A stretch of DNA of 33,552 bases from Planctomycetota bacterium (GTDB taxonomy: Bacteria; Planctomycetota; UBA1135). Position numbers and translations under genes: made by a program. The stretch spans positions 1 through 33,552 of the forward strand of contig JACNIZ010000236.1 in assembly GCA_014382805.1 (NCBI GenBank), read 5' to 3'. This document shows positions 3,410 through 29,568 of the stretch, piece by piece; position 1 is the first letter of the stretch, and each line of letters begins with the position of its first letter. The notes below the pieces were generated by a model. The model searched no databases. It saw nothing but the letters and a program-made list of their open reading frames with translations, and was not told the DNA's origin.

Positions 3410-5460
3410 CATCGAGGCTTCTGCATGGGTTGCTATTAGGCGCATCAATCGCCTGCGTTTCGCTATTCCTTGAACTGCAGCTGCATTTTCGCAGCTACCC
3501 CTACCATCACGATTTCGCATTTTTCTGGACTTGGTTGCCAGAATATGCCCTCGCCGGCAGCTTGCTCGGCTTGCTTGCTGGTGGCCTGCTGCGCTTTTTA
3601 GACCGTTCGGGGCAGGTTCAACGACAAACTGGGTTACATTTGGCTGCTCTCATTATTGGGCTTGGAATTAGCCTTATTAGCGGCTCCACCACGGCTAGTC
3701 TCGAATCGCCGCAAGACATTGTCATAAAATACCTTGTAGCCATTTCTGCTGGCGGTTTAAGTGTATTACTATTCACTGGCTTCGCGCAAAGCCGATACGC
3801 TTGGACGATCTCCGGCTTCACCACTCCATGGTTTTGCGTATTAGCCCTGGCTTTGATTTTTGGTTCGGGACTATCCCTAGGCAAGTTTGGCCCGCAATCC
3901 TGGCCCCCATCTCCCTCCTGGCTGGCGGATCACGAAAATCAAAACTTGCCTGTACAACCAAATGTGCTTTTGGTGGTGCTTGATGGCGTCGGCGCTAGCC
4001 ATCTGGGCAGTTATGGCTACCACCGCTCAACCAGTCCAGAATTGGATCGCATCGCCGGTGAGGGTGTGGTTTTTGAAAACGCGTTTGCAGCCGCCGCCTG
4101 GACCCTGCCTAGTCACGCCAGCCTATTTACCAGTTTGCAGCTCAGTTCCCATGGTGTCGGCTGGCAAAATCTCCATTTAGGCGATGGCCGCCAGGGCAGC
4201 AACGATGCCTACACCCTGGCCGAGGCTTTGGCCTTACGCGGATTTCAAACCTGTGGCATTTCCAACAGTCAGTGGCTGTCGCACCAACACGGCTTGAGCC
4301 AAGGCTTCGATTATTATTTCGACCTACAAGCGACGCCTATTCCAGACCGACTGTTCCTTTCTCAATTGCTCTCCACCTTTGGGATTTCCCCACGCCAAGC
4401 CCGGTTGAGCAGTTCCAGTTTACAAGCGGTAACCACCGCACTTTCATGGTTGCATCAACCGCGTATGCGCGAACCGAAGCAACCGTTTTTTATGTTTGTA
4501 CACCTAGATGAGGCAGACGCCCCCTATCACCTGCCGGAAGATTTCGCCGACGCCACTCGCTTCTTACCAGCCGGCACTCAGCTCAGTGATTTAACGCCAG
4601 CACAATTAGGCAGCGCCGAATCCCGTCAAAGTTATCACTTGGGTTTGCGCGAATTGGAAAAGGATGAGGCGGCCATCCAACAAGCTTTGTATGACGCCAG
4701 CATTCTTTATTTGGATGGATTGCTCCACAAATTATTAGAAGGCTTGCGCGAGCAAAATGCGCTTGAAAATACTTTGGTAATAGTGACTTCTTCGCATGGC
4801 GAAGAATTTTTAGAGCACGGGCGATTTGGCCATCAGTTTTCCTTATCCGACCGTGTCCTGCACGTGCCGTTGATTATGCGCTTACCCAAAATGTTGCCAG
4901 CCGGAAGCCGAGTCCCATCGTTGGCTTCTTTGGTCGACGTCGCGCCAACCATATTTGGAGTTCTCAATAAGGCCGAAGACCAAGAGCCAAGGAATGGTCA
5001 ACTGCTTTGGGAAGGCTTTGATTTAGGTCCAGTGATGCATGACCCGTTGGCAGCACCAAGGGACTGGGTACTCGCGCAATACCAAAACCCAGCTCGCTTG
5101 CTGTTACAGCAGTCGACTGCGCTTTCTGCACCGCAAACCATGGTTGCACGCTCCATCACCACGCTGCGTTCCGACTTAGGCAAGTACTTTCGCTTCGGCG
5201 ACGGCTCGGCCAGCTTTTCCGATTTGGCAACCGATCCAAACGAAAGTGCAGCCGAAAGGTCGGTCGACGACAAATACGCCATAGGGTTTGAAAGAGAATA
5301 TGCGCAAACCCTAGACCAGCTTGAAAATTGGCTAAAAACGCGTCGCACTCTGTTGCAAGGTGCACCGGCTTCCGATGCCGAACAACTCGCCGAGCCAAGC
5401 GCCCTAAAAAAGGCTGAAACTCTTAGAGTGCCGCCAATCTTGTTTGGTTCTAAAAACTAA
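3406..5460 (+). CDS. Membrane-anchored sulfatase-fold (alkaline phosphatase superfamily) enzyme
   Basis: About 684 residues from a GTG start that overlaps the previous stop; a TTG at 3358 would be longer but overlaps the upstream gene by 52 bases. Residues 1-160 hold about four or five membrane helices, and the catalytic domain follows at about residue 188. Metal-site motifs are visible: VVLDGVG with Asp193, WTLPSHASL with Thr233 at the nucleophile position, and HGEEFLEHG (His464) followed by GH and VPLIMRLP. True sulfatases carry Cys or Ser here (CxPSR) for conversion to formylglycine. Here it is Thr, as in the phosphoethanolamine and phosphoglycerol transferases of this superfamily. The reaction is therefore more likely phospho-group transfer or hydrolysis than sulfate ester cleavage. 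The substrate is unknown; an envelope lipid or glycan is plausible. Confidence 0.87.
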   Translation: MTSRLLHGLLLGASIACVSLFLELQLHFRSYPYHHDFAFFWTWLPEYALAGSLLGLLAGGLLRFLDRSGQVQRQTGLHLAALIIGLGISLISGSTTASLESPQDIVIKYLVAISAGGLSVLLFTGFAQSRYAWTISGFTTPWFCVLALALIFGSGLSLGKFGPQSWPPSPSWLADHENQNLPVQPNVLLVVLDGVGASHLGSYGYHRSTSPELDRIAGEGVVFENAFAAAAWTLPSHASLFTSLQLSSHGVGWQNLHLGDGRQGSNDAYTLAEALALRGFQTCGISNSQWLSHQHGLSQGFDYYFDLQATPIPDRLFLSQLLSTFGISPRQARLSSSSLQAVTTALSWLHQPRMREPKQPFFMFVHLDEADAPYHLPEDFADATRFLPAGTQLSDLTPAQLGSAESRQSYHLGLRELEKDEAAIQQALYDASILYLDGLLHKLLEGLREQNALENTLVIVTSSHGEEFLEHGRFGHQFSLSDRVLHVPLIMRLPKMLPAGSRVPSLASLVDVAPTIFGVLNKAEDQEPRNGQLLWEGFDLGPVMHDPLAAPRDWVLAQYQNPARLLLQQSTALSAPQTMVARSITTLRSDLGKYFRFGDGSASFSDLATDPNESAAERSVDDKYAIGFEREYAQTLDQLENWLKTRRTLLQGAPASDAEQLAEPSALKKAETLRVPPILFGSKN

Positions 5461-5909
5461 GAAAGCTCTGGCTGAAAGGCGCGGTCCACGGCCAACCAAG
5501 TCGCGACGAGCACGATGAAGCCGTGCCACATTAAATAAACCCAAAGGTCTGAGCGACGCCAAGCCCATGTTGCACGTTGTGATTTGCGCATGCCCCAACG
5601 CAGCACCAAAGTTTCTAAAGCGCCGATTGCAGCCCAAATTATCAGCCCGGAAATTGCCCACGAAAACCAAGTCGGAGACCCTTGAATCATGCCGGTATGC
5701 GGCTGCGAAACGAGTTCGCCCACAGCCCCACTGGATAAGATGACTAGCCCGCAAACCCAACTGCAGCCCACCGCCGCCAAAAGCAGCAATGTCGTGCGGC
5801 GGAAAAAATGCCCTAAGGTGAACCAGATTGCCCACCATTTCAATACCAAGGACAACACCAAAATCCCGGGATGAGCCAGCGCTTGCAATACCGCAGCGGT
5901 TGGCGTCAT
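5457..5909 (-). CDS. Four-helix membrane protein, unknown function
   Basis: 150 residues with about four hydrophobic segments (near residues 12-32, 40-62, 82-102 and 122-142). Basic residues follow the third segment (LRWGMRKSQR) and a conserved-looking SDLWVYLMWHG precedes the fourth. I do not recognise the family. It is the last gene of the glyS-ptsI-Myb-DUF971 run, beginning 19 bases after the DUF971 stop. Its stop codon interlocks with the stop of the convergent sulfatase-fold gene, with a 4-base overlap. Another minus-strand frame (5404-5838) is open too, but lacks the regular hydrophobic pattern and looks like a shadow. Confidence 0.7.
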   Translation of the reverse strand: MTPTAAVLQALAHPGILVLSLVLKWWAIWFTLGHFFRRTTLLLLAAVGCSWVCGLVILSSGAVGELVSQPHTGMIQGSPTWFSWAISGLIIWAAIGALETLVLRWGMRKSQRATWAWRRSDLWVYLMWHGFIVLVATWLAVDRAFQPELS

Positions 5910-5928
5910 GAGGTTAATTCCATGCTAG

Positions 5929-6231
5929 TTATGGCTGGCTGGTTGAGCCGATTTTCCGTAGGTATTCGAGACGGAAAATCCCTGAATCGTGTTGATCGCT
6001 GAACAGCATTCGATAGGCGTAATGGCCAACCGGCTGCATATCCAAAAGGGTTAAATCATCGGCCACACTGGCTGGATCCAGAATCGCCGCACCAGTCAAC
6101 TCACTGATGCATTCGGCGCATGGGCAAGCCCGGCGCAGAGTCGCTGGTTGCAGGGAGACGCACAAGTCGTCATCCCAGGTGAATTCGATCGCGTCCCCGA
6201 CGCGTTTCAGGGAGCGGAGTGTCGCAGACAT
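5929..6231 (-). CDS. DUF971-family protein
   Basis: 100 residues. It matches the DUF971 fold, which also forms the N-terminal domain of gamma-butyrobetaine hydroxylase and a C-terminal part of some ApbC/MRP proteins. A beta-rich start (IEFTWDDD) leads into LRRACPCAECI with Cys36, Cys38 and Cys41, then MQPVGHYAYRMLFSDQHDSGIF, shown here in part: VGHYAYR, then HDSGIF, then the closing EYLR. These are the standard landmarks. A longer reading up to 6330 exists, but the domain starts at ATG 6231 and the extension would overlap the gene upstream. Stand-alone DUF971 proteins have no settled function; iron-sulfur or metal binding has been suggested from the Cys motif. It is the fourth gene in the glyS run. 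Confidence 0.85.
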   Translation of the reverse strand: MSATLRSLKRVGDAIEFTWDDDLCVSLQPATLRRACPCAECISELTGAAILDPASVADDLTLLDMQPVGHYAYRMLFSDQHDSGIFRLEYLRKIGSTSQP

Positions 6232-6265
6232 ACTAACTAGCCGGTGGCAAGCAAAGGTGGCCGAA

Positions 6266-7015
6266 CTAAGGCAAAGGTGCCCTGTCGGTGGAATAGCTCG
6301 GGCTTTGTTTCTGGTAGCGCAGGCGCACATTTTCGCGCCCCATGTCCCGCAACCGCGACGAGCTTTTTTTCAGCCCTAAATCATGAGCTTTGGACACCGC
6401 ACTCTTAAGGGTGCGATTTAAAGCATGGGCAATATCCAAATTGGGTGTATCCGGATAAAGCTGGGCCAACTTTTCGACGTCATCCTTGGTCCAACGGGGC
6501 ATGCGCACACGTTTTCCCGTTCCGCGACGTCGTTGGAAACCCTTGTCCTTGGCGAGGCGAAACTCGGAGGCTTTTTCCTCTATATCAGCCTCAGGGCGCC
6601 CGAGGATCACAACCAAGTCAACGCTAGACCGAGTGCCGTAGTGGCGTTTAAGCAATTGCAGGTCCTCGGCCAACCAAGGCCGTGACCGCACTTCGCCACG
6701 CAACTCTTTGACCTTGCGCAGAATGTCGCCTTGGGTCCTGCGTAGCACTAATTCCATTACCAGGATTTCCGCTACGCCCCAATACTCCTTGAGCAGGTAA
6801 ACCTCCTTCGGAGCCCACGGCCCGGTGCGAAGATCACCCTTAAATACCTTTTTGGCTATGCGGCGGACACTTTCAACTGAGCGATTTAAGTCTCGACCCA
6901 AGGCTTTATCCGAAACCTTGCCGTACTTACGTTTCAGCTTATCCAGCTCAGCGTGGGACCACGGGCCTTTGCGTCGACGCGTTACGCTTTGGGTGCCTTG
7001 GACGGTGGAATTCAT
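6266..7015 (-). CDS. Protein with four tandem Myb/SANT-like helix-turn-helix repeats
   Basis: 249 residues, very basic. Four repeats each open with a tryptophan after a basic turn: GPW (Trp19), GPW (Trp67), RPW (Trp114) and PRW (Trp175). Each then runs through the pattern acidic-x-x-x-Leu-x-x-x-Tyr, followed by a second and third helix of the type LGR/LNR-x-x-x-x-(V/I)-x-x-K. Spacing is 48, 47 and 61 residues. The last repeat (WTKDDVEKLAQLYPD, then LNRTLKSAVSKA) is the most canonical. This predicts a DNA-binding protein with no other domain and a basic tail of about 35 residues. The start is uncertain: ATG 7015 is chosen, while GTG 7033 and TTG 7054 are in frame. It follows ptsI closely, so it is probably co-transcribed with glyS and ptsI. 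Confidence 0.8.
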   Translation of the reverse strand: MNSTVQGTQSVTRRRKGPWSHAELDKLKRKYGKVSDKALGRDLNRSVESVRRIAKKVFKGDLRTGPWAPKEVYLLKEYWGVAEILVMELVLRRTQGDILRKVKELRGEVRSRPWLAEDLQLLKRHYGTRSSVDLVVILGRPEADIEEKASEFRLAKDKGFQRRRGTGKRVRMPRWTKDDVEKLAQLYPDTPNLDIAHALNRTLKSAVSKAHDLGLKKSSSRLRDMGRENVRLRYQKQSPSYSTDRAPLP

Positions 7016-8822: not shown

Positions 8823-10298
8823 TTAGCCGCTTACTGCAGCCTCCTGCGGAGTGGATGGTCGACTCCAGGCGGCGCTCTTAGCGTCCATAATTTCACGTAA
8901 GTCCTCGATCTTGACGCGTTCCTGGGCCATCGAATCGCGCTCGCGCAAAGTGACGCTGCCGTCGCTAAGGGTATCGCCATCGACAGTGACACAGAATGGT
9001 GTACCGATCTCATCCTGACGCCGGTAGCGTCTGCCAATGGACTGATTTTCTTCAATCGCAGTACGGAAATGGCGACGTAATTCCTGCTCAATCTCGGCCG
9101 CCTTTTCCGGCATGCCTTCTTTTTTCACCAACGGGAAGATCGCCACGGTGACCGGCGCAATGCGTGGGTGGAAATGCAAAACAACGCGCTTTTGCTTGCC
9201 TTCACCTTCTTCGTCATAGGCGTCGGCGAGGAAAGTCATTGCAGTGCGATCGCAACCAGCAGCGGGCTCAATTACAAATGGGGTGATGTGCTCATTAGCT
9301 TCCTGATCAAAGTAACTCAAGTTTTGGCCGCTACATTCGCTGTGCTTTGTCAGGTCGTAATTGGAGCGGTTGGCGATGCCTTCCAGCTCGGACCAGCCGA
9401 ATGGGAACAAGTATTCGACGTCGCCGCAACCACGCGCATAGTGGGCCAATTCATCTTTTGCGTGCTCGCGCATGCGCAGCTTGTCTGGGTTGATGCCCAG
9501 ATCCAAGTACCACTGATAGCGCTCCTGCTGCCAGTACTTGTACCACTCATCGGCTTCCTCGGGACGGCAGAAGAATTCCATTTCCATTTGCTCGAACTCA
9601 CGCGTGCGGAAGACAAAGTTGCCGGGCGTAATTTCGTTGCGGAATGACTTGCCAATTTGGGCAATGCCGAACGGCAATTTTTTGCGTGTAGAAGTCACCA
9701 CATTGTTGAAGTTAATAAAAATGCCCTGGGCGGTTTCGGGTCGCAAATACGCAATCGAAGCACTGCCTTCCACCGCACCGACCTGGGTTTGGAACATCAA
9801 ATTGAACTGGCGTACGTCGGTCCAATCATCGGTACCGGAAACAGGGTCCTTGATGCCTTCATCCAAAATCAACTGCTTCAACGCGTCGTTGTCGCCAATG
9901 GCCGCCACCAACTTGGACTCCAATGCAGCAACCTTGTCAGTTTTACCCTTCTTGCGATACTTCTCGATCTTGGCTTCAACCAAGTGATCGGCGCGATAAC
10001 GTTGCTTAGAAGTTTTGTTATCAATCAGAGGGTCACTAAAGCCGCCGACGTGGCCACTTGCTTGCCAAACCTTGGGCGATTGAATAATCGCCGAATCCAA
10101 GCCGACGATATCCTGACGTGAGTAAACCATGGCTTCCCACCAGGCTTCTTTGACGCGTTTTTTCAGTTCAACGCCCAATGGCCCCCAGTCATAAGTGGAG
10201 CCTTGGCCTCCGTAAATTTCGGAAGCAGGAAATACAAAACCTCTGCGTTTGCAGAGGGAGACAACTTTGTCCATCACGGAGGGTGCAGGCTTTGCCAT
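8823..10298 (-). CDS. glyS: Glycyl-tRNA synthetase, single-chain (alpha2) class II type
   Basis: 491 residues. It charges tRNA-Gly. This is the dimeric single-chain type shared with archaea, eukaryotes and part of the bacteria, not the GlyQ/GlyS tetramer. Visible landmarks are the N-terminal FVFPASEIYGG with the DWGPLG loop (about 21-43), LRPETAQG (185-192), motif 2 FRNEI (219-223) followed by the glycine-pocket segment EFEQMEMEFF (234-243), and motif 3 GCDRT (348-352). An anticodon-binding domain follows from about residue 380 to the end. A tRNA-Gly(GCC) gene lies about 5.7 kb away in this window. It is the first gene of the minus-strand run and its promoter must lie in 10299-10606. Confidence 0.96.
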   Translation of the reverse strand: MAKPAPSVMDKVVSLCKRRGFVFPASEIYGGQGSTYDWGPLGVELKKRVKEAWWEAMVYSRQDIVGLDSAIIQSPKVWQASGHVGGFSDPLIDNKTSKQRYRADHLVEAKIEKYRKKGKTDKVAALESKLVAAIGDNDALKQLILDEGIKDPVSGTDDWTDVRQFNLMFQTQVGAVEGSASIAYLRPETAQGIFINFNNVVTSTRKKLPFGIAQIGKSFRNEITPGNFVFRTREFEQMEMEFFCRPEEADEWYKYWQQERYQWYLDLGINPDKLRMREHAKDELAHYARGCGDVEYLFPFGWSELEGIANRSNYDLTKHSECSGQNLSYFDQEANEHITPFVIEPAAGCDRTAMTFLADAYDEEGEGKQKRVVLHFHPRIAPVTVAIFPLVKKEGMPEKAAEIEQELRRHFRTAIEENQSIGRRYRRQDEIGTPFCVTVDGDTLSDGSVTLRERDSMAQERVKIEDLREIMDAKSAAWSRPSTPQEAAVSG

Positions 10299-16113: not shown

Positions 16114-17175
16114 TCAGAGATTTCTCTGGGAGCGTTTGGCCAATTTGCGTTGCGAAGCTGCGACCAGGGGCACTGGCTCGACGCCCTCCACACCAAAAAG
16201 CTTAAGAGCGCGGATGCGGATCTTCTCAACCACGTCCTCTATCGCCAGGTCGGTCAATGGGACCTGGCCTCCAGCCATGCGCCCATGGCCGCCACATGCA
16301 CCCTCGCCACCGAGGATGTAGCGCAACGCCGGGTAAGCGTCGGCGCCGGGCATGTCGGTGCGCAAGGAAACTTGGTAACGACCGTCACACGCCCCTCCCG
16401 CCAATGACCATTGCTGGCCGTCTAAACGTACAAACCAATCAGCGACTTCGGCGACGGTCTCGGGGCTGGTGACCTCACCCATCAACGCCAACAATGCGAA
16501 ACCATAAACTTCACAGCTATCGATCGCCTGTGCCATTTGCCCGAAGTAGGAACGCGGCAAGGGAGGGCTATCAATCTGTTGCAGCATTTTCCGATCGGCA
16601 TTTTTTTGCAATTCAAAAAATGATTCTTCGTCAAAGCTGGTTGACTCAAGAGCCAAGTCGTGAGTGTCGTAGCGTATACCGCAGAACAACGCAGTTGCGG
16701 TTCTACGCGAGGGTATGACATCGAATTCGCGCATCAAGTGATGCACCATGGTCGAGGTCGCACCGAAGCCGGAATCCACCCACGAATAGATTGGATCCAA
16801 CAACTCGCTGCATGGTTCTTCCGCGCCTTCGTGGTGGTCCAGTACCGCCAGCAACGGCAAACCGCCTGGCGGATGGGTATGGGAAAAGCCGGGTTGGCTA
16901 TCGACCAAAATCAATCCTTTGTATTCCGCAGGATTCACACCGCCTTTAGGGATGGAATGAATCTTGAGCAACTGCCGCATGGCAACGTTTTCGGCTCGGC
17001 GAATTCGTCCTTCCAATACCAAGTCGGAACCAAGGCCGAATCGATCTTGAAGCAATTGCTGGATACCCACCAACGCACCCAGGCCGTCGGGATCGGGATG
17101 GCGGTGAGTGCAGAGCAACAACTTCCCCTCGGAGGGAAGGGCTTCTGCGAATCGCTGAGGATGCGACGGGCTCAT
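16114..17175 (-). CDS. DHH-family phosphoesterase (NrnA / RecJ-like superfamily)
   Basis: 353 residues. All four DHH motifs are present: THRHPDPDGLGA (His26, Asp28, Asp30), VDSQ (Asp92), DHH (113-115), and GIRYDTHDL (Asp170). The C-terminal DHHA1 domain has the glycine-rich GGHGRMAGG near residue 300. These are metal-dependent phosphodiesterases. NrnA-like members degrade nano-RNA or pAp, and others cleave cyclic dinucleotide products, so the exact substrate cannot be read from the sequence. It starts 15 bases after the TIM-barrel gene and is followed by tRNA-Gly. No membrane or GGDEF-like part is attached, so it is unlike the GdpP type. Confidence 0.9.
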   Translation of the reverse strand: MSPSHPQRFAEALPSEGKLLLCTHRHPDPDGLGALVGIQQLLQDRFGLGSDLVLEGRIRRAENVAMRQLLKIHSIPKGGVNPAEYKGLILVDSQPGFSHTHPPGGLPLLAVLDHHEGAEEPCSELLDPIYSWVDSGFGATSTMVHHLMREFDVIPSRRTATALFCGIRYDTHDLALESTSFDEESFFELQKNADRKMLQQIDSPPLPRSYFGQMAQAIDSCEVYGFALLALMGEVTSPETVAEVADWFVRLDGQQWSLAGGACDGRYQVSLRTDMPGADAYPALRYILGGEGACGGHGRMAGGQVPLTDLAIEDVVEKIRIRALKLFGVEGVEPVPLVAASQRKLAKRSQRNL

Positions 17176-17190
17176 TCAAAGGATGCGGAG

Positions 17191-18084
17191 TCAACGGATA
17201 CCGAAGGAAGCCAAAGCTTCCCGAGCGGCAGGCAAGGACCCTATAGGATAAACGGGAGCGGCCGCCAGCACACGCACTGCTGGGCGGGGTAAATATTCGG
17301 CCACCAATTGGAAATCCACCTGGCCCTCCCCCGGCAGCAGTAAATCGCGGCCATCGGCCCAATCTTGCAGCGTACATCCGGCAATTGCACCACCGGCGGC
17401 ATCCAGCCAATCGCCCGGCTGCTCCATTCCAAATGCGGCCCTGGTTTGCACGTTGCCACAGTCGTGCCAATAGCTCAGCCAGGTCAATCCAGCGTCTTGA
17501 CGCAGGATCTGCAGGTGAGCTGGGCGCAATAAACCAGCAGGCGAGGCGTTGGCAGTCACCGCCAAAATCAGCCCGGGTGCGCGCTGGTGAATTCCATGGA
17601 GAAACCTGGCCAGGGCATCCAATTGACGCTCCAGCTCACCCCCAGCAGGGTTTTGGAGGGGCTCTAGGGCTTCTTGAGCCGGTCCAGGCGCTCCATTCTC
17701 CATGAAATCCATAAGTAGCTTTTCCCCACGCTGTTGGGCGCCAGCCGCCTGCAAAAAACCGACGTCCAAAATGAGCGCCTGGGCACCCAAAAGTTGCAAG
17801 CCCGAGCGAACCGAGGTCCATTGTTGGGCAGCTCGGCTCCAGATTTCAGTCACGGTGGACGAGGGTGAGGCGGGCAGGTTTGTATCGGCAGGCGGGTGCA
17901 GACAACTCCAGGCGGCCACCGGGACACGACCGTGGAGGTGGGCCGGGAAAGCCTCGACATCGTCGATGGTGAGAAGGTCTCCAGGCAAGGGCACAACGCC
18001 GCTAAAGCCGAATTCGGCCGCGAGGTCGATTTGCGCTTGAATTCCGTCGGCATTTGAGCCGAAACACGTCTGAGCCAAATTCAT
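17191..18084 (-). CDS. Xylose-isomerase-like TIM-barrel protein with degenerate active site
   Basis: About 297 residues from ATG 18084; a TTG at 18117 would add 11 residues. The layout follows the sugar-phosphate isomerase/epimerase (AP endonuclease 2-like) barrel: an AQIDLAAEFGFSGVV opening strand-helix, LILDVGFL in the middle, LSYWHDCGNVQTRAAFG late, and LLLPGEGQVDF near the end. The WHDCGN and PGEGQVDF segments are the best matches. The metal-binding Glu expected on the middle strands is not obvious (LILAVTANAS stands where an E-N pair is usual), so catalysis is doubtful. It is the first gene of a short run with the DHH phosphoesterase. Substrate and role are unknown. Confidence 0.65.
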   Translation of the reverse strand: MNLAQTCFGSNADGIQAQIDLAAEFGFSGVVPLPGDLLTIDDVEAFPAHLHGRVPVAAWSCLHPPADTNLPASPSSTVTEIWSRAAQQWTSVRSGLQLLGAQALILDVGFLQAAGAQQRGEKLLMDFMENGAPGPAQEALEPLQNPAGGELERQLDALARFLHGIHQRAPGLILAVTANASPAGLLRPAHLQILRQDAGLTWLSYWHDCGNVQTRAAFGMEQPGDWLDAAGGAIAGCTLQDWADGRDLLLPGEGQVDFQLVAEYLPRPAVRVLAAAPVYPIGSLPAAREALASFGIR

Positions 18085-18199
18085 GGAAGAAGCCGATTTT
18101 TCTAAGTTTACAGCCAAGAAAGGGCCGCCAAGTGGGCAGTTTAATGGTTAAGCTAGCCCCTGCGAGAAATCGCATTGATCCTACCCATTCATCATCATC

Positions 18200-19771
18200 A
18201 TGTTGAGCATTCTTACCACCGTCATGTTGCTACTCCCTGCCGTTCCGCAGGAAGCCGCACCAACTTGCCCGTCTCAGGAGCCTGCAAAGGTCTGCACTGA
18301 GGCTACCGCTGTCGCCGCCGCCAAGGCCAACGACAAGTCCTGCTGCGAAGCAACTGCTGCTACCACTGCATCGGTGGCCTCCGCCACCTGCGATTCGGTG
18401 GCCTCCGCCACTTGCGATTCAGTTGCGACCGCAACCTGCGATTCCATCGCCACTGCCAGCTGCGATTCCAAAGTGGCAAGCTTGGATTACGCCCTCGCTA
18501 GCATCACCCAGAAACTGGATGCTCAAGAGCCGGAATGCAGCAAGTCCGCTTGCGATTCGTTAAAGGCATCGGAATGCTCCACGGTGGCAAGCGCAGAATG
18601 TGGCGCACCGACCTACTCGACAGTCATGTTGCAGATCGACGAATGCTTGAAGCCGTCCGAATGCGACAGTAACAAAGAATGCTCTGACGAAGCCGCTTGC
18701 CCAACTACGCAACAAGCTGCATTGGTTTCGGCCTCCACATGCCCTTCGCAACAAGCCCAGCAAGCTGCTGCCACCTGCCCGTCGCAACAAGCTGCTCAGC
18801 AAGTTGTCACCTTGGTTGCTGCTCAAGAGCCTGTGAGTGCTTGCAGCGAAGTTCAAGCTCAAAGCTGCAAGACTAGTGAGTGCGCCACTACTGCCAGTAG
18901 TGCACCCTCCGCTTGCGCCACTACTGCCAGTGCACCTGCCGCTTGCGCAACTTCCGAATGCGCCACTGCCGAGTGTGAAACGAACACCGTGGTAACTTTG
19001 GTCGAAGAGATTGTCGAAGAAGAATGCAGCGAGTGCTGCGAGGAAAGCGTTGCTTGCGAAGAAATTGTGGTAAGCAGCAATAATGCTAGTGGCACCTTTG
19101 AATTTGTTGTAAACACTGGTGGCCAAGCACAGGTCATTGAAGTTTGCTGTGAAGAAGTTGAAGAAGTTTGCTGCGAAGAGGCAACCGAAGTTGGCTTTGA
19201 AGTAGCTACTGCCGAGTGCTGCAAAGAAGAAGCCGAGGCCTGCTGCGATGAGCAAGAGATTGCCTTCGACCTCACCGCCCTTGATAGCTTGGGTTACGTC
19301 GGTTCCGGCCATGGCGAAAAGGCGATGAAAGTTATGATCCAGATTGATGGCGACGTCGACAACCTGGATGCTCAGATCGCAGAGTTGCTAGCCAACATCG
19401 ATGTACAACAGTTAGGCGGTCATTCCGTCATTCGCCTGGACGCTGCCGACAACGACGAGCAATGCAGTGAATGTGACGATAATGATGATGGCTGCGAGGA
19501 TTGCGACGAAAAGTGCAGCGAGTGTGATGATGAGCACAACGCACCGAAGCTAATCCAGAAACGCATCGAACTCCGTCGTCCGGTTTCTGCACAGCAGTCC
19601 ATTGAAGGACAACACCATTTGGATTTACGCGGTGGCCTCACTTTCTCCGGCAACGCTCCGGTTGTTGAAGTGGTAGAAAGTCGCGACAACATGGAACAGC
19701 GCCTTGTGGCACTGGAGAATCGCTTGGCTCGCATGGAGCAGTTACTAGAGCGCTTGAACGAGCGTCTGTAA
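18200..19771 (+). CDS. Exported, extremely cysteine-rich repeat protein with C-terminal coiled coil
   Basis: 523 residues and about 43 cysteines, all before residue 450. I do not recognise a family. A hydrophobic N-terminus (MLSILTTVMLLLPAV) is a likely signal peptide. Next come four 8-residue repeats of the form SVASATCD (58-89), Cys/Gln units of CPSQQ (about 180-200), Ala/Thr/Ser/Cys-rich stretches, then Glu-rich segments with CC pairs (VCCEE, ECCKEE, ACCDE; about 275-355). A more ordinary segment (MKVMIQIDGDVDNL onward, about 378-415) precedes an acidic Cys cluster with six cysteines (about 422-447). The last 28 residues form a heptad-patterned coiled coil. Export into an oxidising space would favour disulfide cross-linking; metal binding is the alternative. 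It stands alone with its own terminator. Confidence 0.85.
   Translation: MLSILTTVMLLLPAVPQEAAPTCPSQEPAKVCTEATAVAAAKANDKSCCEATAATTASVASATCDSVASATCDSVATATCDSIATASCDSKVASLDYALASITQKLDAQEPECSKSACDSLKASECSTVASAECGAPTYSTVMLQIDECLKPSECDSNKECSDEAACPTTQQAALVSASTCPSQQAQQAAATCPSQQAAQQVVTLVAAQEPVSACSEVQAQSCKTSECATTASSAPSACATTASAPAACATSECATAECETNTVVTLVEEIVEEECSECCEESVACEEIVVSSNNASGTFEFVVNTGGQAQVIEVCCEEVEEVCCEEATEVGFEVATAECCKEEAEACCDEQEIAFDLTALDSLGYVGSGHGEKAMKVMIQIDGDVDNLDAQIAELLANIDVQQLGGHSVIRLDAADNDEQCSECDDNDDGCEDCDEKCSECDDEHNAPKLIQKRIELRRPVSAQQSIEGQHHLDLRGGLTFSGNAPVVEVVESRDNMEQRLVALENRLARMEQLLERLNERL
18371..18466 (+). repeat. Four tandem 24-base repeats in the Cys-rich gene
   Basis: Four units start at 18371, 18395, 18419 and 18443, each encoding eight residues (SVASATCD, SVASATCD, SVATATCD, SIATASCD). 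The first two units differ by a single base (ACCTGC vs ACTTGC), while units three and four have diverged at several positions. This gradient suggests a recent duplication of units one and two in an older array. Confidence 0.9.
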
Positions 19772-19798: not shown

Positions 19799-19803
19799 AT
19801 GCG

Positions 19804-19836
19804 AAAGGGCACCTGGTAGGTGCCCTTTCTTTTTTT
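19804..19836 (+). terminator. Intrinsic terminator of the Cys-rich gene
   Basis: AAAGGGCACC (19804-19813) and GGTGCCCTTT (19819-19828) form a perfect 10-base stem with a five-base loop, followed by C and seven T. This is a strong rho-independent terminator 33 bases after the stop codon, ahead of the convergent purB 3' end. Confidence 0.95.
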
Positions 19837-19870: not shown

Positions 19871-21310
19871 TTATACGCTGACTTCACCCGCTGCAGCTTT
19901 AACTTCGCTGCGCTTTAGCAAACAAGGCATCACGTGTTCTGCAAGGAAGTCCTGCACCTGCTCGGAAGCACGGCCCACAAAGCCTTTTGGATGAACTAGT
20001 TCTTGGATCCGATCCTTGATGCAGGCAAATGCATCATCCGCTGTAATGCGCTCTAGCAAATCATTGACGCCATCTTCGGTCTTCATACGCGCAGCCGCAG
20101 CGTGGCTATGAATGCGAATGCGCTCGTGTAAATCCTGACGATCGCCGCCCGCTTGCACGGCTGCCATCAGCAAAGTTTCTGTCGCCATGAAGGGTAGCTC
20201 TTTGGCCAGATTGGCTTCAATCACCCGTGGGTATGGGATTAAGCCCGATGAAACATCTTGCACTAGCAGCAAAATGGCGTCGGCCGCCAAGAATGACTCC
20301 GGGATGGCGATACGACGGTTTGCTGAATCGTCCAGAGTACGCTCTAACCACTGATTCGCAGCGGTTTCGCTGGCGTTTGGTGCTAGGTTCATGAGGTAGC
20401 GCGCCAAAGCTCCAATGCGCTCAGATCGCATCGGATTGCGCTTATACGGCATTGCGCTGGATCCAATTTGTTTGGTTCCAAATGGCTCTTCCAATTCGCG
20501 ACGGTGCGCTAACAAGCGAATGTCTGTAGCGAACTTGGCGGCAGATACACCGATTCCGGCGATCGTCTGAAGCACCATTGCATCCCACTTGCGTGGATAA
20601 GTTTGACCGCATACAGGCACTGCTCGCTGGAAACCCATGCGCTTGGTCACGTTGGCTTCTAGGTCGCGGACCTTTTGATGATCACCATCAAATAGCTGCA
20701 AAAAGCTGGCTTGGGTACCAGTCGTTCCCTTGACGCCGCGGAAGGGCAAAATGTCAATCAAGCGCTCAAGCTCTTGCAAGTCGAGCAGGAAATCCTGCAA
20801 CCACAAACTTGCGCGCTTGCCCATCGTGGTCGGTTGCGCTGGCTGGAAATGAGTAAATCCTAAAACAGGCAGATCTTTTTGCTCATCACAGAATTCGGCT
20901 AGGGCACGCATCGCCGCAACTAAACGATCGCGCAGGATCAGCATGCCCTCCTTCATTTGGATCAAGTCTGAACCATCGGCGACGTAACAAGAAGTCGCTC
21001 CAAGGTGAAGAATCGGTTTGGCCGACGGCGCGACTTCACCATAAGCGTGGACGTGCGCCATCACGTCGTGGCGCAACTGGCGTTCTAGCTCAGCCACTCG
21101 ATCAAAATCGATGTCTTCCCGTGCAGCCCGCAACTCTGCGATTTGCTCCGCACTAATATCCAAACCCAATTCGTGCTCAGCTTCCGCTAATGCGATCCAC
21201 AAATCGCGCCAAATCAAGCTGCGCCGTCGGTAAGAAAAATTCTCCTGCATGGCAGGACTTGCATAGCGAGCTGCGAGCGGAGAAACGTAGCGATCGTGGG
21301 TTTGAGTCAT
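19871..21310 (-). CDS. purB: Adenylosuccinate lyase, eukaryote-like type
   Basis: 479 residues. It catalyses two fumarate-releasing steps of purine synthesis (SAICAR to AICAR, and adenylosuccinate to AMP). The fumarase/aspartase signature GSSAMPYKRNPM is at 283-294. LGATSCYV is at 103-110, and the catalytic TH pair is in GFTHFQPAQ (151-159). Long stretches are the ones I know from animal ADSL rather than from E. coli or Bacillus PurB, for example FRGVKGTTGTQASFLQLF, ERTLDDSANRRI, KELPFMATE and GRASEQVQ (mammalian: GRASQQVQ). The length also fits the animal enzyme (about 484). It is the last gene of the ruvC-to-purB run, 12 bases after the VanZ-like gene. Confidence 0.96.
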   Translation of the reverse strand: MTQTHDRYVSPLAARYASPAMQENFSYRRRSLIWRDLWIALAEAEHELGLDISAEQIAELRAAREDIDFDRVAELERQLRHDVMAHVHAYGEVAPSAKPILHLGATSCYVADGSDLIQMKEGMLILRDRLVAAMRALAEFCDEQKDLPVLGFTHFQPAQPTTMGKRASLWLQDFLLDLQELERLIDILPFRGVKGTTGTQASFLQLFDGDHQKVRDLEANVTKRMGFQRAVPVCGQTYPRKWDAMVLQTIAGIGVSAAKFATDIRLLAHRRELEEPFGTKQIGSSAMPYKRNPMRSERIGALARYLMNLAPNASETAANQWLERTLDDSANRRIAIPESFLAADAILLLVQDVSSGLIPYPRVIEANLAKELPFMATETLLMAAVQAGGDRQDLHERIRIHSHAAAARMKTEDGVNDLLERITADDAFACIKDRIQELVHPKGFVGRASEQVQDFLAEHVMPCLLKRSEVKAAAGEVSV

Positions 21311-25735: not shown

Positions 25736-28700
25736 TTACCAGGTAAACGGAATCTTCAAGTAAGAAATCAACGGCTGCGGAGTGGCAAGGTTCACACCGG
25801 AAGCCAGGGCGTCGATATCGAACACCACTTGGTAGCGGATGAAACGATAGCCTTGCAATTGGCTGAGGTCCGAAGTCCAAGTATTGGTGTCCGGGAATGG
25901 CGTGCCAGGCACATTGGTTCCTGCACCAGATTGCTCGGCACCTTGGAATTGAATGGTGACTCCAGTGCCAGCTGGCAAAGCATCCAATACACCGCCAGTA
26001 GTAAGGCGGAAGAACCGAGGAAGCAGCGCCCAATTCAAGCCTGTGCCAACCAACAACGAGCCGTCGGCTGGATCGGTGAGCAAGGTCAAGGTATCCGTCG
26101 ATTTTTTGTAAGAGGCACTCACTACGGTGCGATTTGCGGAAAGCACTTCATTTGGTTTGAAGCCGTAGCCACGCAGCAGGTTTGGTTGACGCAGGAAGTG
26201 CTCCAAGCCAGCAAAGACAGTGGATGCATTGCCAATTTGCGCCTCGAAGTCGAACAGACTGCTGTCGGAAACGGAGCCGCTGACGATTTGCGTCAAGGCG
26301 GAAACCATGCCCGAATCGACATCAACAGAACCATTGCTGGAGTTGATGCCCATCAATTGCAGCATCGAACTAGTGTAGTTCGGGAAATCAACCGGTGGAC
26401 TTACATTTGGTTGACGTAATTCTGCTAAACCGGTATCAACCCACTTACTACGGAACATGGATTTCGCAGAGAAAATGGGGACCAGCGCGTATGGCTTCGG
26501 TGCAGCGAAGACTCGCAAAATCTCTTCCAGACGGTCGCGATCTAAGTCGTTGTTGTTGACGTCGCCGTTGTGCAGGTAATTCTTAATTTCAGAATCTCGA
26601 GATACTGGCCAAAGGATGTCAGTCGTCGGATCCGGAACGTGAATTTGAACCACGCCGTTTCCGCCAGCACCTCCTCGGCCGATGGCGTAAGTTTCATTGC
26701 CATCATCAATAACGGAGCCAGAACCTAAGTCGGCGTCATTCACTTGCGACATTGCCCAGCCACGACGACCCCCAATAGCAACCAACACTTCGGTGAAGTA
26801 AACACCTGCGATTGGAATCTCGTAAAAGTCTTCGTCTTGAATGGTCCAGTTTTGGTCGCCGCCTTGACCAGAATCAAGGATGTCAATTTCAGAAAGGTCC
26901 AACTTGGATGCCGTGCTAAGCACGATGTGACCACCGGAGCCACCGCCAGATCCACTGACCTGGCCGTAAGTCCATCCGATGGACTCACCACCCATGCCGT
27001 TGCCGCCGCGGGCCAATACTTTGCCGGCAGCACCGATGACGATGTCACCAATTGCCATGACCATAACTTGGCCACCACCGCCGCCGCCTGGAGCACCTTT
27101 ACGGTAAACGTCAATCCTACCGTTAGGGAAGTTCGGCTCCGGGAAGCTATCCGTCAACGGATCGTCACCGTTATTGCCGCGCACGTAAATCACCATATCG
27201 CCGGACGCGCCACCACCGGCACCGGCCCATGGGATCAGCAACTCACCAGGAGTTACGGAGCCGTCGTTGTTTACGCGTACACCCCAGAAGTCGTTACTAG
27301 TAGTGCCATCGTTTGAGAATATGGACGGCCCTGGCAAACCGGCGTCGGCGCCCTTGGTTGGGTGACCCAGCAAGCGTGGGAATTCGTTCACCGTGTCGGC
27401 CACCAAAGTCTTGCCACCGGCAATGTCGTTACTGAACGGGTTTGGCTGAGTTGCAGTGTTATCCCAAGGCTCAGAATAACGTTCCACAAAGGGGCCGGAT
27501 TGACCATCTTGTGCTTCAGCAGCATTGGTCGGCCGGTAGATGAGGTCAGGAGACTCATCCTCCATTCCATAAACACCATTTGGCTTCAGCGGATCCTCTT
27601 CAGTAGAACCCCACGAGCTACCACGCACACCAGCTTCGCCACCAACTACGTTGTAAACGAAACGACTACCAGACAACTGCGGATCGGTGGCAGTGTTCCA
27701 GTTCAGACGGTGGTCCATGGTAAAGTTTTTATCTACCGAAGGCATCTTGTCGTCTTCCGTCCACCGCGTCCAATAAATGGAGACGTTATCGGTAAGCGCA
27801 AAAGTACCGCCACCGCCCCCGGCTGCAGTGTTACTTACCGCTTCTTTGGTGTAACTCGCATCGGTGTAGCGCTCTTGGTTGAAGCCGCCTTCACCTCCTT
27901 GGCCACCATTGCCTTCAAAACCCCAAGCACCGTCACCGGATGAACCGCGATAGGTTTCTTGAAAGACTTCCTGGGACGAAGTACCACCGGTGCCACCACC
28001 ACATTCTCCTTTGGCACCACCTTCAGGGCGCTGCGGGGAATTCAGTCCAGTTGGCCAGATCGCATTGTTACCGGAAACGTTTAGTATGCCGTCCAAGGTC
28101 ACCGTGCCAGTGGCGTAGACCACCAATGGGTTGGACCCACGTGCACGTAATTCACTGTCGGCTTCAATGGTAAAGTTGCGGCAACTAATGACACCATTCA
28201 AAACAGTATGGGTCGTATTACCGGAGTCGGTAAAGAAGGTCTGTGAGTTTGTGGAAATCTCGGTGTAGCCAGAGTCCAGATAAAAGTCCTTAGTCGTAAA
28301 TTCACCAGGGAAATCAAAACTCGCTTGCACGTAGCCGTCTTCGATCGTTGCCGAAGGCAGCGGCAAGGCGGCGGACAAATCCAAACGCGTCGAGTTCTCA
28401 AAGAACTCTTGATACTCATCGGTCACCTCGTTGGCAGACCAGTCCACACTGGAATCGCCAAGTGCTTTTGCAATAGTTGGAGTGGTATGGGTCGCAGGTA
28501 GCAAATCAGCGAAGTTTCCTTGACCGGCAATGTCGGTGAATTGACGCTTGATGATTGCTTGCAACTTGCGGTTAGGTGGCAGCAATCCTGCAATTTCAAA
28601 CAACACAACTGCGCCGGTAGAAACACAATTTTCCTCAATGCGGATGGAACCCGGCAGTCGGTTCGTTACCGGGAAAACGTCTTCGCCTGCGGTACCGATC

Positions 28701-29386
28701 TCACCGTCGGCATAGAGGATGTACAGGTTTAATAAGTTCAGATTCAGGTTTCGGGCGTCGATGGCCTGATTGAAATGGAATCGAATCGAGGATTCCGGAT
28801 CGTTGTAAAAGTTAAGTCCTTTGGGCCATTCGATGGATGGGCTGGAAAGCAGAGTTGGGGGTCCATCGACGTAATCCAAAAACAAGCTGGAGCCTGCACC
28901 AGTCGGCGAGGTGAAACTGCGGGTCACCCCTTGCTTGAGTGCTCGACCATCCTTATCCCGCAGAACCTCGGCGCCGAACTTCGTGGAAGTCGGAATGCTC
29001 AGCGTGTAGGTGTAGCCGCCAGGTACAAATCCACCGTTGGAGTTGTCGTTCGCTGTGGGGCAAGTCGGGCGGAAATAAATGGTGCGTGGATCTTCTGAAT
29101 CACTTTCAAAAGAACCGGTCACTGGTTGATTCACGTCCTTGGAACTGAAAAGGATGGTTCCAAAGTGAACGGTATCCATGTCGACCGGGTTATTGAAGGT
29201 CAGCTGGACCAACTTATTCAATTCCCAGGTAACCCCGTCACCCATATTGGTGGATTGGAGCAAAAAGTTGCCGGAGGACCCTTGGCCACCAGCATTGGTG
29301 CCAGAACCTCCTCCGCAAGAGGGCAGCACAAAGAGCGCGCCGACGACAGTCAGCGTGCTAAGAGTTGAGAGAATTTTGGACGCCAT
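25736..29386 (-). CDS. Large glycine-rich lipoprotein with N-terminal Ig-like domain
   Basis: 1216 residues from ATG 29386, which has a good Shine-Dalgarno sequence (AAAGGA). A basic, hydrophobic signal ends in the lipobox LPSC (Cys24), then a GGGSG spacer. An extension to 29560 is open but has no signal and is rejected. Residues about 45-165 look like a bacterial Ig-like (Big_5) domain: VTWELNKLVQLTFNNPVDMDTV. Residues about 430-830 are rich in Gly, with runs such as GGGGGTF and GGGGGGQVMVMA and recurrent beta-strand stretches (TVTLDGILNVSG, IVIGAAGKVLARGG), which suggests a beta-solenoid. The last 380 residues look globular. A surface-exposed adhesin or matrix role is plausible. It is 182 bases downstream of the methyltransferase gene, so it probably has its own promoter. 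Confidence 0.82.
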   Translation of the reverse strand: MASKILSTLSTLTVVGALFVLPSCGGGSGTNAGGQGSSGNFLLQSTNMGDGVTWELNKLVQLTFNNPVDMDTVHFGTILFSSKDVNQPVTGSFESDSEDPRTIYFRPTCPTANDNSNGGFVPGGYTYTLSIPTSTKFGAEVLRDKDGRALKQGVTRSFTSPTGAGSSLFLDYVDGPPTLLSSPSIEWPKGLNFYNDPESSIRFHFNQAIDARNLNLNLLNLYILYADGEIGTAGEDVFPVTNRLPGSIRIEENCVSTGAVVLFEIAGLLPPNRKLQAIIKRQFTDIAGQGNFADLLPATHTTPTIAKALGDSSVDWSANEVTDEYQEFFENSTRLDLSAALPLPSATIEDGYVQASFDFPGEFTTKDFYLDSGYTEISTNSQTFFTDSGNTTHTVLNGVISCRNFTIEADSELRARGSNPLVVYATGTVTLDGILNVSGNNAIWPTGLNSPQRPEGGAKGECGGGTGGTSSQEVFQETYRGSSGDGAWGFEGNGGQGGEGGFNQERYTDASYTKEAVSNTAAGGGGGTFALTDNVSIYWTRWTEDDKMPSVDKNFTMDHRLNWNTATDPQLSGSRFVYNVVGGEAGVRGSSWGSTEEDPLKPNGVYGMEDESPDLIYRPTNAAEAQDGQSGPFVERYSEPWDNTATQPNPFSNDIAGGKTLVADTVNEFPRLLGHPTKGADAGLPGPSIFSNDGTTSNDFWGVRVNNDGSVTPGELLIPWAGAGGGASGDMVIYVRGNNGDDPLTDSFPEPNFPNGRIDVYRKGAPGGGGGGQVMVMAIGDIVIGAAGKVLARGGNGMGGESIGWTYGQVSGSGGGSGGHIVLSTASKLDLSEIDILDSGQGGDQNWTIQDEDFYEIPIAGVYFTEVLVAIGGRRGWAMSQVNDADLGSGSVIDDGNETYAIGRGGAGGNGVVQIHVPDPTTDILWPVSRDSEIKNYLHNGDVNNNDLDRDRLEEILRVFAAPKPYALVPIFSAKSMFRSKWVDTGLAELRQPNVSPPVDFPNYTSSMLQLMGINSSNGSVDVDSGMVSALTQIVSGSVSDSSLFDFEAQIGNASTVFAGLEHFLRQPNLLRGYGFKPNEVLSANRTVVSASYKKSTDTLTLLTDPADGSLLVGTGLNWALLPRFFRLTTGGVLDALPAGTGVTIQFQGAEQSGAGTNVPGTPFPDTNTWTSDLSQLQGYRFIRYQVVFDIDALASGVNLATPQPLISYLKIPFTW

Positions 29387-29446
29387 TGCTTTCCTTTTGG
29401 CTATGCGATTAATTCGCAGCTTTGTTAGGTACCGACTTAACCGCAA

Positions 29447-29461
29447 ATGCTGTACCAGCAT
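29447..29461. repeat. Small hairpin or palindrome upstream of the large lipoprotein gene
   Basis: ATGCTG and CAGCAT pair around a TAC loop within the 182-base gap between the methyltransferase stop and the lipoprotein start. It could be an operator or part of a 5' leader. No T-tract follows on the minus strand. The rest of the gap shows nothing I can name. Confidence 0.35.
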
Positions 29462-29568
29462 AGCCCGGCCGGTCCTGGGAGGGAATTGCGCGAGTCCGCG
29501 CTGAATGTTCGAAATCGAACAAGCCGGGCAGCAGGCAAGTGCTGCTCTCGAGGGTGCCAAACTCTAGT

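Follow-up and report, generated by a model that had tools for sequence, protein, structure and literature searches.

The question posed by this locus is "What role is served by a protein in which cysteine is so abundant?" The window (the whole stretch of DNA analyzed, 33,552 nucleotides from a planctomycete of the UBA1135 lineage) contains 23 genes, one of which encodes a protein of 523 residues with exactly 43 cysteines (8.2%), and the products of the other 22 contain 0-1.9% cysteine. A preliminary description, made from the sequence, had counted about 43 cysteines and had listed SVASATCD tandem repeats, CPSQQ units, Glu-rich CC pairs, a six-Cys acidic cluster, a heptad-patterned C-terminus and a monocistronic gene with a strong terminator, and each of these features was borne out (Table 1). 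The four SVASATCD-type units occupy residues 58-89, CPSQ units begin with residues 23, 181 and 193, the Glu-rich CC pairs lie at residues 279-349, and the six cysteines of the acidic cluster fall within 21 residues (422-442) in which Asp and Glu abound; similar acidic clusters occur in the related proteins of L070 and L074 and in the L082 lipoprotein. Overall the window protein has six CC pairs, four CxxC and no CxC, and a net charge of -66. Its gene stands alone because the upstream neighbor is divergent and purB, downstream, is convergent. AlphaFold2 was run on this protein and six relatives; the window model has a pLDDT of 39.7 overall and mostly below 50 outside one helix, low values that are partly due to a shallow alignment, and its sole confident element is that helix, at residues 495-522 (pLDDT 87-96), where the heptads had been noted.

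Table 1. Features of the cysteine-rich gene and of the neighbors that mark its position (coordinates in the window).
Feature	Position	Strand	Basis or remark
Cys-rich exported protein gene (type A, see text), 523 aa, 43 Cys; export predicted	18200..19771	+	ORF, ribosomal-protein-like codon use, syntenic homologs
Hydrophobic N-terminal segment, putative export signal, cleavage site unclear	18200..18259	+	In relatives, a canonical signal peptide or a lipobox
24-bp unit in four tandem copies, coding for SVASATCD-type octapeptides	18371..18468	+	TRF, period 24 x4.1
Two CPSQQ units, residues 181-200	18740..18799	+	Related CPSQ at residue 23
Glu-rich region with CC pairs, residues 276-349	19025..19246	+	Sequence
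Acidic six-Cys cluster CSECDDNDDGCEDCDEKCSEC, three CxxC, residues 422-442	19463..19525	+	Sequence
C-terminal amphipathic helix, residues 495-522	19682..19765	+	The one part of type A that is well conserved
Intrinsic terminator: 12-bp stem, 3-nt loop, T7	19803..19829	+	Sequence
purB (adenylosuccinate lyase), convergent neighbor marking the slot	19871..21310	-	Found in 26/26 family genomes
308-aa divergent neighbor, other border of the slot	17191..18117	-	No Pfam/NCBIfam match
DHH/DHHA1 phosphoesterase-family gene, conserved marker for finding the slot	16114..17175	-	

Is the gene an orphan? A protein search of 85,000 species returned no matches for the window protein, a search of 60 related genomes returned one marginal match (in G021) and no convincing relative, and no other Cys-rich paralogs were found in its own genome by protein search; genes of this kind evidently escape ordinary homology search. 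The marginal match (L002/L004) was rejected as a different, M56-linked protein, and the other C-terminal matches, to PDZ and unrelated proteins, were rejected because only a generic amphipathic helix is in common. The preliminary description had stated that the layout of the protein matches no nameable family, and this agrees with our searches of Pfam, NCBIfam and PDB, which gave no match; nor did Pfam give one for any member scanned of the two types of relative described below. Matches to SlyX, XhlA and DUF7310 in Pfam, and to GTP_morpho_1 and MSCRAMM (L070) in NCBIfam, were rejected as weak coiled-coil or low-complexity matches. By these computations the family lacks sequence homology to known families, and it is absent from the libraries searched.

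Relatives were found by reading the purB-adjacent regions of family genomes and then scanning for the DHH gene. The gene order in the family is purB, the slot gene or genes on the opposite strand, the 308-aa gene and DHH, and the slot holds an exported Cys-rich ORF in 22 of the 25 readable family loci (18 complete, 4 truncated), counts that come from incomplete MAGs. That ORF is missing from L079, unrelated genes lie between the slot markers in L080, and in G020 an MscS-like gene adjoins purB, the remainder of the locus being unread. About 40 outgroup loci were read and none has a Cys-rich exported ORF in the slot, the gap there being short or occupied by other genes. A search with the tail alone matched a protein of G002 whose gene is also convergent with purB. 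The named loci belong to UBA1135, a lineage of Planctomycetota, and L068 is the MAG that bears this name; Pla163 and Poly30 are more distant relatives, and the slot gene is absent from both. The window gene is no orphan: it is a member of a syntenic, fast-evolving, lineage-restricted family, set apart less by its sequence than by its position, its composition, export and codon usage. The upstream regions of the slot genes showed no conservation, and no sigma-70 promoter was found in them.

Two kinds of protein are encoded in the slot. Type A (the window protein, L066, L067, L070, L072, L074, L077, L085 and others) opens with a hydrophobic or signal segment, continues with Cys-rich repeats that vary between members, and carries a conserved C-terminal helix with the consensus [E/Q/S/K/R][R/Q](L/I/M/V)..(L/I/M)E.(R/Q)L.R(I/L/M)E.(L/M)(L/V). 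The period of its tandem repeats differs in nearly every genome (24, 84, 87, 162, 186 bp and others), and the window protein aligns with L066, L067 and L070 at weak pairwise scores of 31-35 bits, against a maximum of 26.6 in 200 shuffles each. Type B, with ten members, is a lipoprotein beginning MIRFLLPxLLL..[GAS]C, with 8-17% Cys and no coil; the Cys after the hydrophobic segment is invariant (10/10) and a lipobox pattern is present in nine of the ten, L069 having LCSC. Its profile matched 10 of 26 family genomes and none of 125 other genomes of the order. Both types occur together in L082, L069, L087 and also L078 (the A gene of which is partly N), and in these genomes A has few cysteines (0-2.5% where measured, in three of them) and is Met/His-rich, the cysteines being carried by B. 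On a tree of purB and DHH, genomes with A alone are basal in the slot-bearing clade, those with A and B form a derived grade and those with B alone make up one nested group; the B-containing clades are supported at 0.91-0.99 and the B-only group at 0.70. B arises once on this tree, where A is Cys-poor, and afterwards A is gone from the slot; the simplest reading is a single hand-over of the Cys load from A to B.

Some loci of the family have peculiarities of their own. The L070 slot gene (4473-6974, minus strand) contains an 84-bp repeat (CDSKAAAVTVSGKACDTKQKQECETKKA) some 13 times over and encodes 64 Cys in a weakly acidic protein, so strong acidity is no family trait. In L067 (5812-6984, minus strand) there are N bases inside near-identical 162-bp Cys-rich repeat units, and the copy number is uncertain through this assembly ambiguity. 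In three of the genomes with both types (L069, L078, L087) the 308-aa neighbor gene was not found by tblastn and the Cys-poor type A gene directly adjoins the DHH gene.

What has been kept while the sequence changed almost entirely from one species to the next? In close pairs, at 70-82% identity, Cys is the best-kept residue (retention 0.97-1.00) and dN/dS of the slot gene is about 0.07-0.25, and the cysteines are under selection. Their geometry varies between members, about half of which lack any tetra-Cys cluster, and their counts are both odd and even, so that parity is uninformative. Three repeat-free members (L071, L076, L090) are equally Cys-rich. Codon choice, tested against the ribosomal proteins of each genome by amino-acid-preserving resampling, is ribosomal-protein-like for the window gene (z 4.2, tied top among the 23 window genes) and for 16 of 17 slot genes of relatives (z 2.8-11.7), 14 of which are the top gene of their locus; repeats inflate some of these values, and the three repeat-free members give 3.2, 7.8 and 8.2, respectively. 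A class II aminoacyl-tRNA-synthetase-like gene of the window (8823-10298) also scores high, as expected. Codon usage thus suggests that the slot product is abundant. Separately, the window encodes, at 25736-29560 on the minus strand, a candidate for an abundant surface protein: it has 1274 aa, a Big_5 Ig-like domain and ribosomal-protein-like codons (z 4.2).

Export of the window protein is the least secure element of this description. The N-terminus had been called signal-like, and it is indeed hydrophobic, but MLSILTTVMLLLPAVPQEAAP has no Lys or Arg and no clear signal-peptidase site, which makes the signal peptide atypical and counts against the reading we prefer; a lipobox is also absent from it, and a longer ATG, GTG or TTG start is excluded by an in-frame TGA shortly upstream. 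Export is nevertheless supported, by comparison of sequences, because syntenic relatives carry canonical signal peptides (L072, L074, L085, L070) or, in type B, lipoboxes; L066 and L067 have the N-terminal motif MLS-L-T/S-T...QEP in common with the window protein.

Our best reading is that the slot product is probably an abundant, exported, mostly unstructured, thiol-rich protein of the envelope. The preliminary description had proposed a cross-linked structural protein of the envelope or a metal-sequestering protein; a thiol-dependent envelope role is supported because there is selection on Cys, high predicted expression and a lipid-anchored alternative carrier. We favor disulfide cross-linking as the role of the thiols, tentatively and at not quite an even chance, over its close rival, metal binding. 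The exported chain would be held in the envelope by the C-terminal coiled-coil helix (A) or by lipid (B), and its many cysteines would form inter-chain disulfides; the resulting matrix would be flexible and cross-linked, and comparable in function to chlamydial OmcB/OmcA or to the YTV wall proteins of planctomycetes. Repeats could expand, shrink or be replaced freely because such a network would need only the number of cysteines and a rough density. A multivalent thiol polymer of this kind would fit the predicted abundance and envelope targeting, the anchor, turnover of sequence and repeats, and strict Cys retention. Arguing for cross-linking in particular are the unconserved Cys geometry, the high predicted abundance and the presence of Cys-rich cross-linked envelope proteins in the same superphylum (PMC8567305, PMC10632474, PMC6752827).

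How close are those precedents? YTV-domain proteins (PF07639) were recovered from planctomycete cell-wall/SDS fractions (PMC8567305) and are reported only from Planctomycetales/class Planctomycetia (PMC8567305, PMC10632474), and the precedent of a Cys-rich planctomycete wall, to which the preliminary description had appealed, belongs to a lineage other than that of the window (PMC8567305, PMC10632474). YTV and slot proteins are alike in being Cys-rich, planctomycetal and exported (the slot proteins by homology), but no sequence similarity was found between them; the PF07639 search gave no matches in the window protein or the 26 family genomes, although its positive control gave none either. 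The second precedent is the chlamydial Omc complex, for which disulfide cross-linking is documented (PMC6752827). As in L082, the Omc system comprises two Cys-rich envelope kinds, a small lipoprotein beside a larger soluble one. The slot proteins differ from it in having no Pfam Omc match among the A and B members scanned, in that one carrier seems to pass its Cys load to the other, and in that DsbB was mostly not found in the family genomes and no developmental cycle is known. OmcA, the small Cys-rich protein of chlamydiae, is a lipoprotein, and OmcB is their large Cys-rich protein. The Braun lipoprotein, Lpp, is abundant, is encoded by a single-gene unit with a strong terminator, and has a lipid anchor and a helical coiled coil but no Cys-rich region; the slot proteins are like it, as a structural analogy only, in predicted abundance, in a lone gene with a strong terminator and in a lipid or helical coiled coil, but they have no homology to it and the Cys-rich region is theirs only. 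We think that the slot protein works like known Cys-rich envelope proteins, and by the tests run it is a member of none of them.

The outcome of the search for oxidation machinery speaks weakly against cross-linking. No canonical disulfide-forming pair was found in the family genomes searched: VKOR was found in none of the 26, DsbB was above the cut-off in only one, and the sole DSBA-family match in the window's own genome lacks a signal peptide. The absence of VKOR says little because the enzyme is patchy across the phylum (27 of 149 planctomycete genomes), and after this phylum-wide control we downgraded it as evidence for reduced thiols. Enriched tetra-Cys clusters and Met/His-rich versions also count against cross-linking, and point to metal.

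Could the slot protein, then, be an exported metal-binding protein, its cysteines, with Met, His and acidic residues, binding Cu(I), Zn or Cd? It might serve as a buffer in the periplasm or at the surface, in the manner of a Csp1-type store or of a metallothionein that is oversized and extracytoplasmic. We consider this a real possibility, if the less probable one. Cys, Met and His together (C+M+H) make up as much as 8-23% of the slot proteins, which are acidic and have few aromatic residues, the last and the cysteines being traits that they have in common with metallothioneins (SmtA, MymT) and Csp1; Cys is swapped for Met or His in some (13% Met in L072; 10.8% Met and 5.1% His in the type A protein of L069; 7.4% His in L063); CxxC-x3-7-CxxC clusters number 5 in A, against 0.7 in shuffles, and 19 in B, against 1.5; and the canonical disulfide enzymes are mostly absent from our searches. 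However, CxC, the classic metallothionein motif, is avoided family-wide (z -4.6 and -5.6), Cys geometry is unconserved, no metal transporter or regulator is found among the annotated neighbors, and ribosomal-protein-like codons suggest constitutive abundance rather than induction by metal. Metallothioneins are small and rich in CxC/CxxC, and the window protein is large, has no CxC and has no Pfam metallothionein match. The Cys-lined four-helix bundle of Csp1/Csp3 finds no counterpart either: there is no Pfam or PDB match to a metal protein, the window model is disordered, and the model of the type B protein L086, which is also limited by a shallow alignment, has helices at pLDDT 70-80 and no PDB fold match, Csp-like or other. 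Csp1 is exported (PMC7558416), but the N-termini of slot proteins are of Sec or lipoprotein type, not Tat. We also advance, at somewhat less than an even chance, a thiol-based envelope polymer of the lineage's own, encoded in a fixed slot, expressed at ribosomal-protein level and conserved only in Cys load, export and expression; its Cys load would have passed once from the coiled-coil-tailed A to a newly arisen lipoprotein, B, and its cross-links may be disulfides or metal thiolates.

An envelope thiol redox buffer or oxidant scavenger, in which free Cys and Met are both sacrificed and neither network nor metal is needed, seems improbable: it would account for a Cys/Met load that appears conserved when geometry is not, and for the Met-rich versions, but no partner reductase is found among the annotated neighbors and the conserved coiled-coil tail and the lipid anchor would be left unexplained. 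Far less likely is a low-complexity surface filler or decoy whose cysteines stem from repeat slippage and have no function, as the recently duplicated tandem repeats and the mostly disordered model might suggest, given that Cys is the best retained residue, dN/dS is low, repeat-free members are just as Cys-rich and codon usage is ribosomal-protein-like. We give least credence of all to a cytosolic protein with a hydrophobic segment by chance, since the N-terminus that invites this reading, with no basic residue and no evident cleavage site, has its motif in common with L066 and L067 and belongs to a family of signal peptides and lipoboxes.

A cross-linked matrix would be one more independent instance, within the Planctomycetes-Verrucomicrobia-Chlamydiae group, of envelope structure built on Cys-rich proteins, and it would come from a lineage beyond the one class that reportedly has YTV proteins. 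The slot is also an unusually clean example in which a gene has been retained for what it is made of, where it lies and how it is expressed, its sequence being replaced meanwhile, and the hand-over of Cys between carriers is a natural experiment on the role of the thiols.

Similar amphipathic helices are found elsewhere in the lineage, in proteins with other loci and other domains, where the helix in common is short and generic. The M56-linked protein of G021 (L002:1027-2214, minus strand), exported and 395 aa long, is encoded directly after an M56-type (BlaR1-like) peptidase gene and also has an acidic Cys cluster, GCGDENCEGCEECDITCEVEC; it is possibly a second Cys-cluster envelope protein family of the lineage. 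Two exported PDZ proteins (L005:403-1614, plus strand; L006:1498-2685, minus strand) end in nearly the type A helix (ALEDRLANMEHLLQRLADRL), and this C-terminal tag may be a targeting or oligomerization module common in the lineage.
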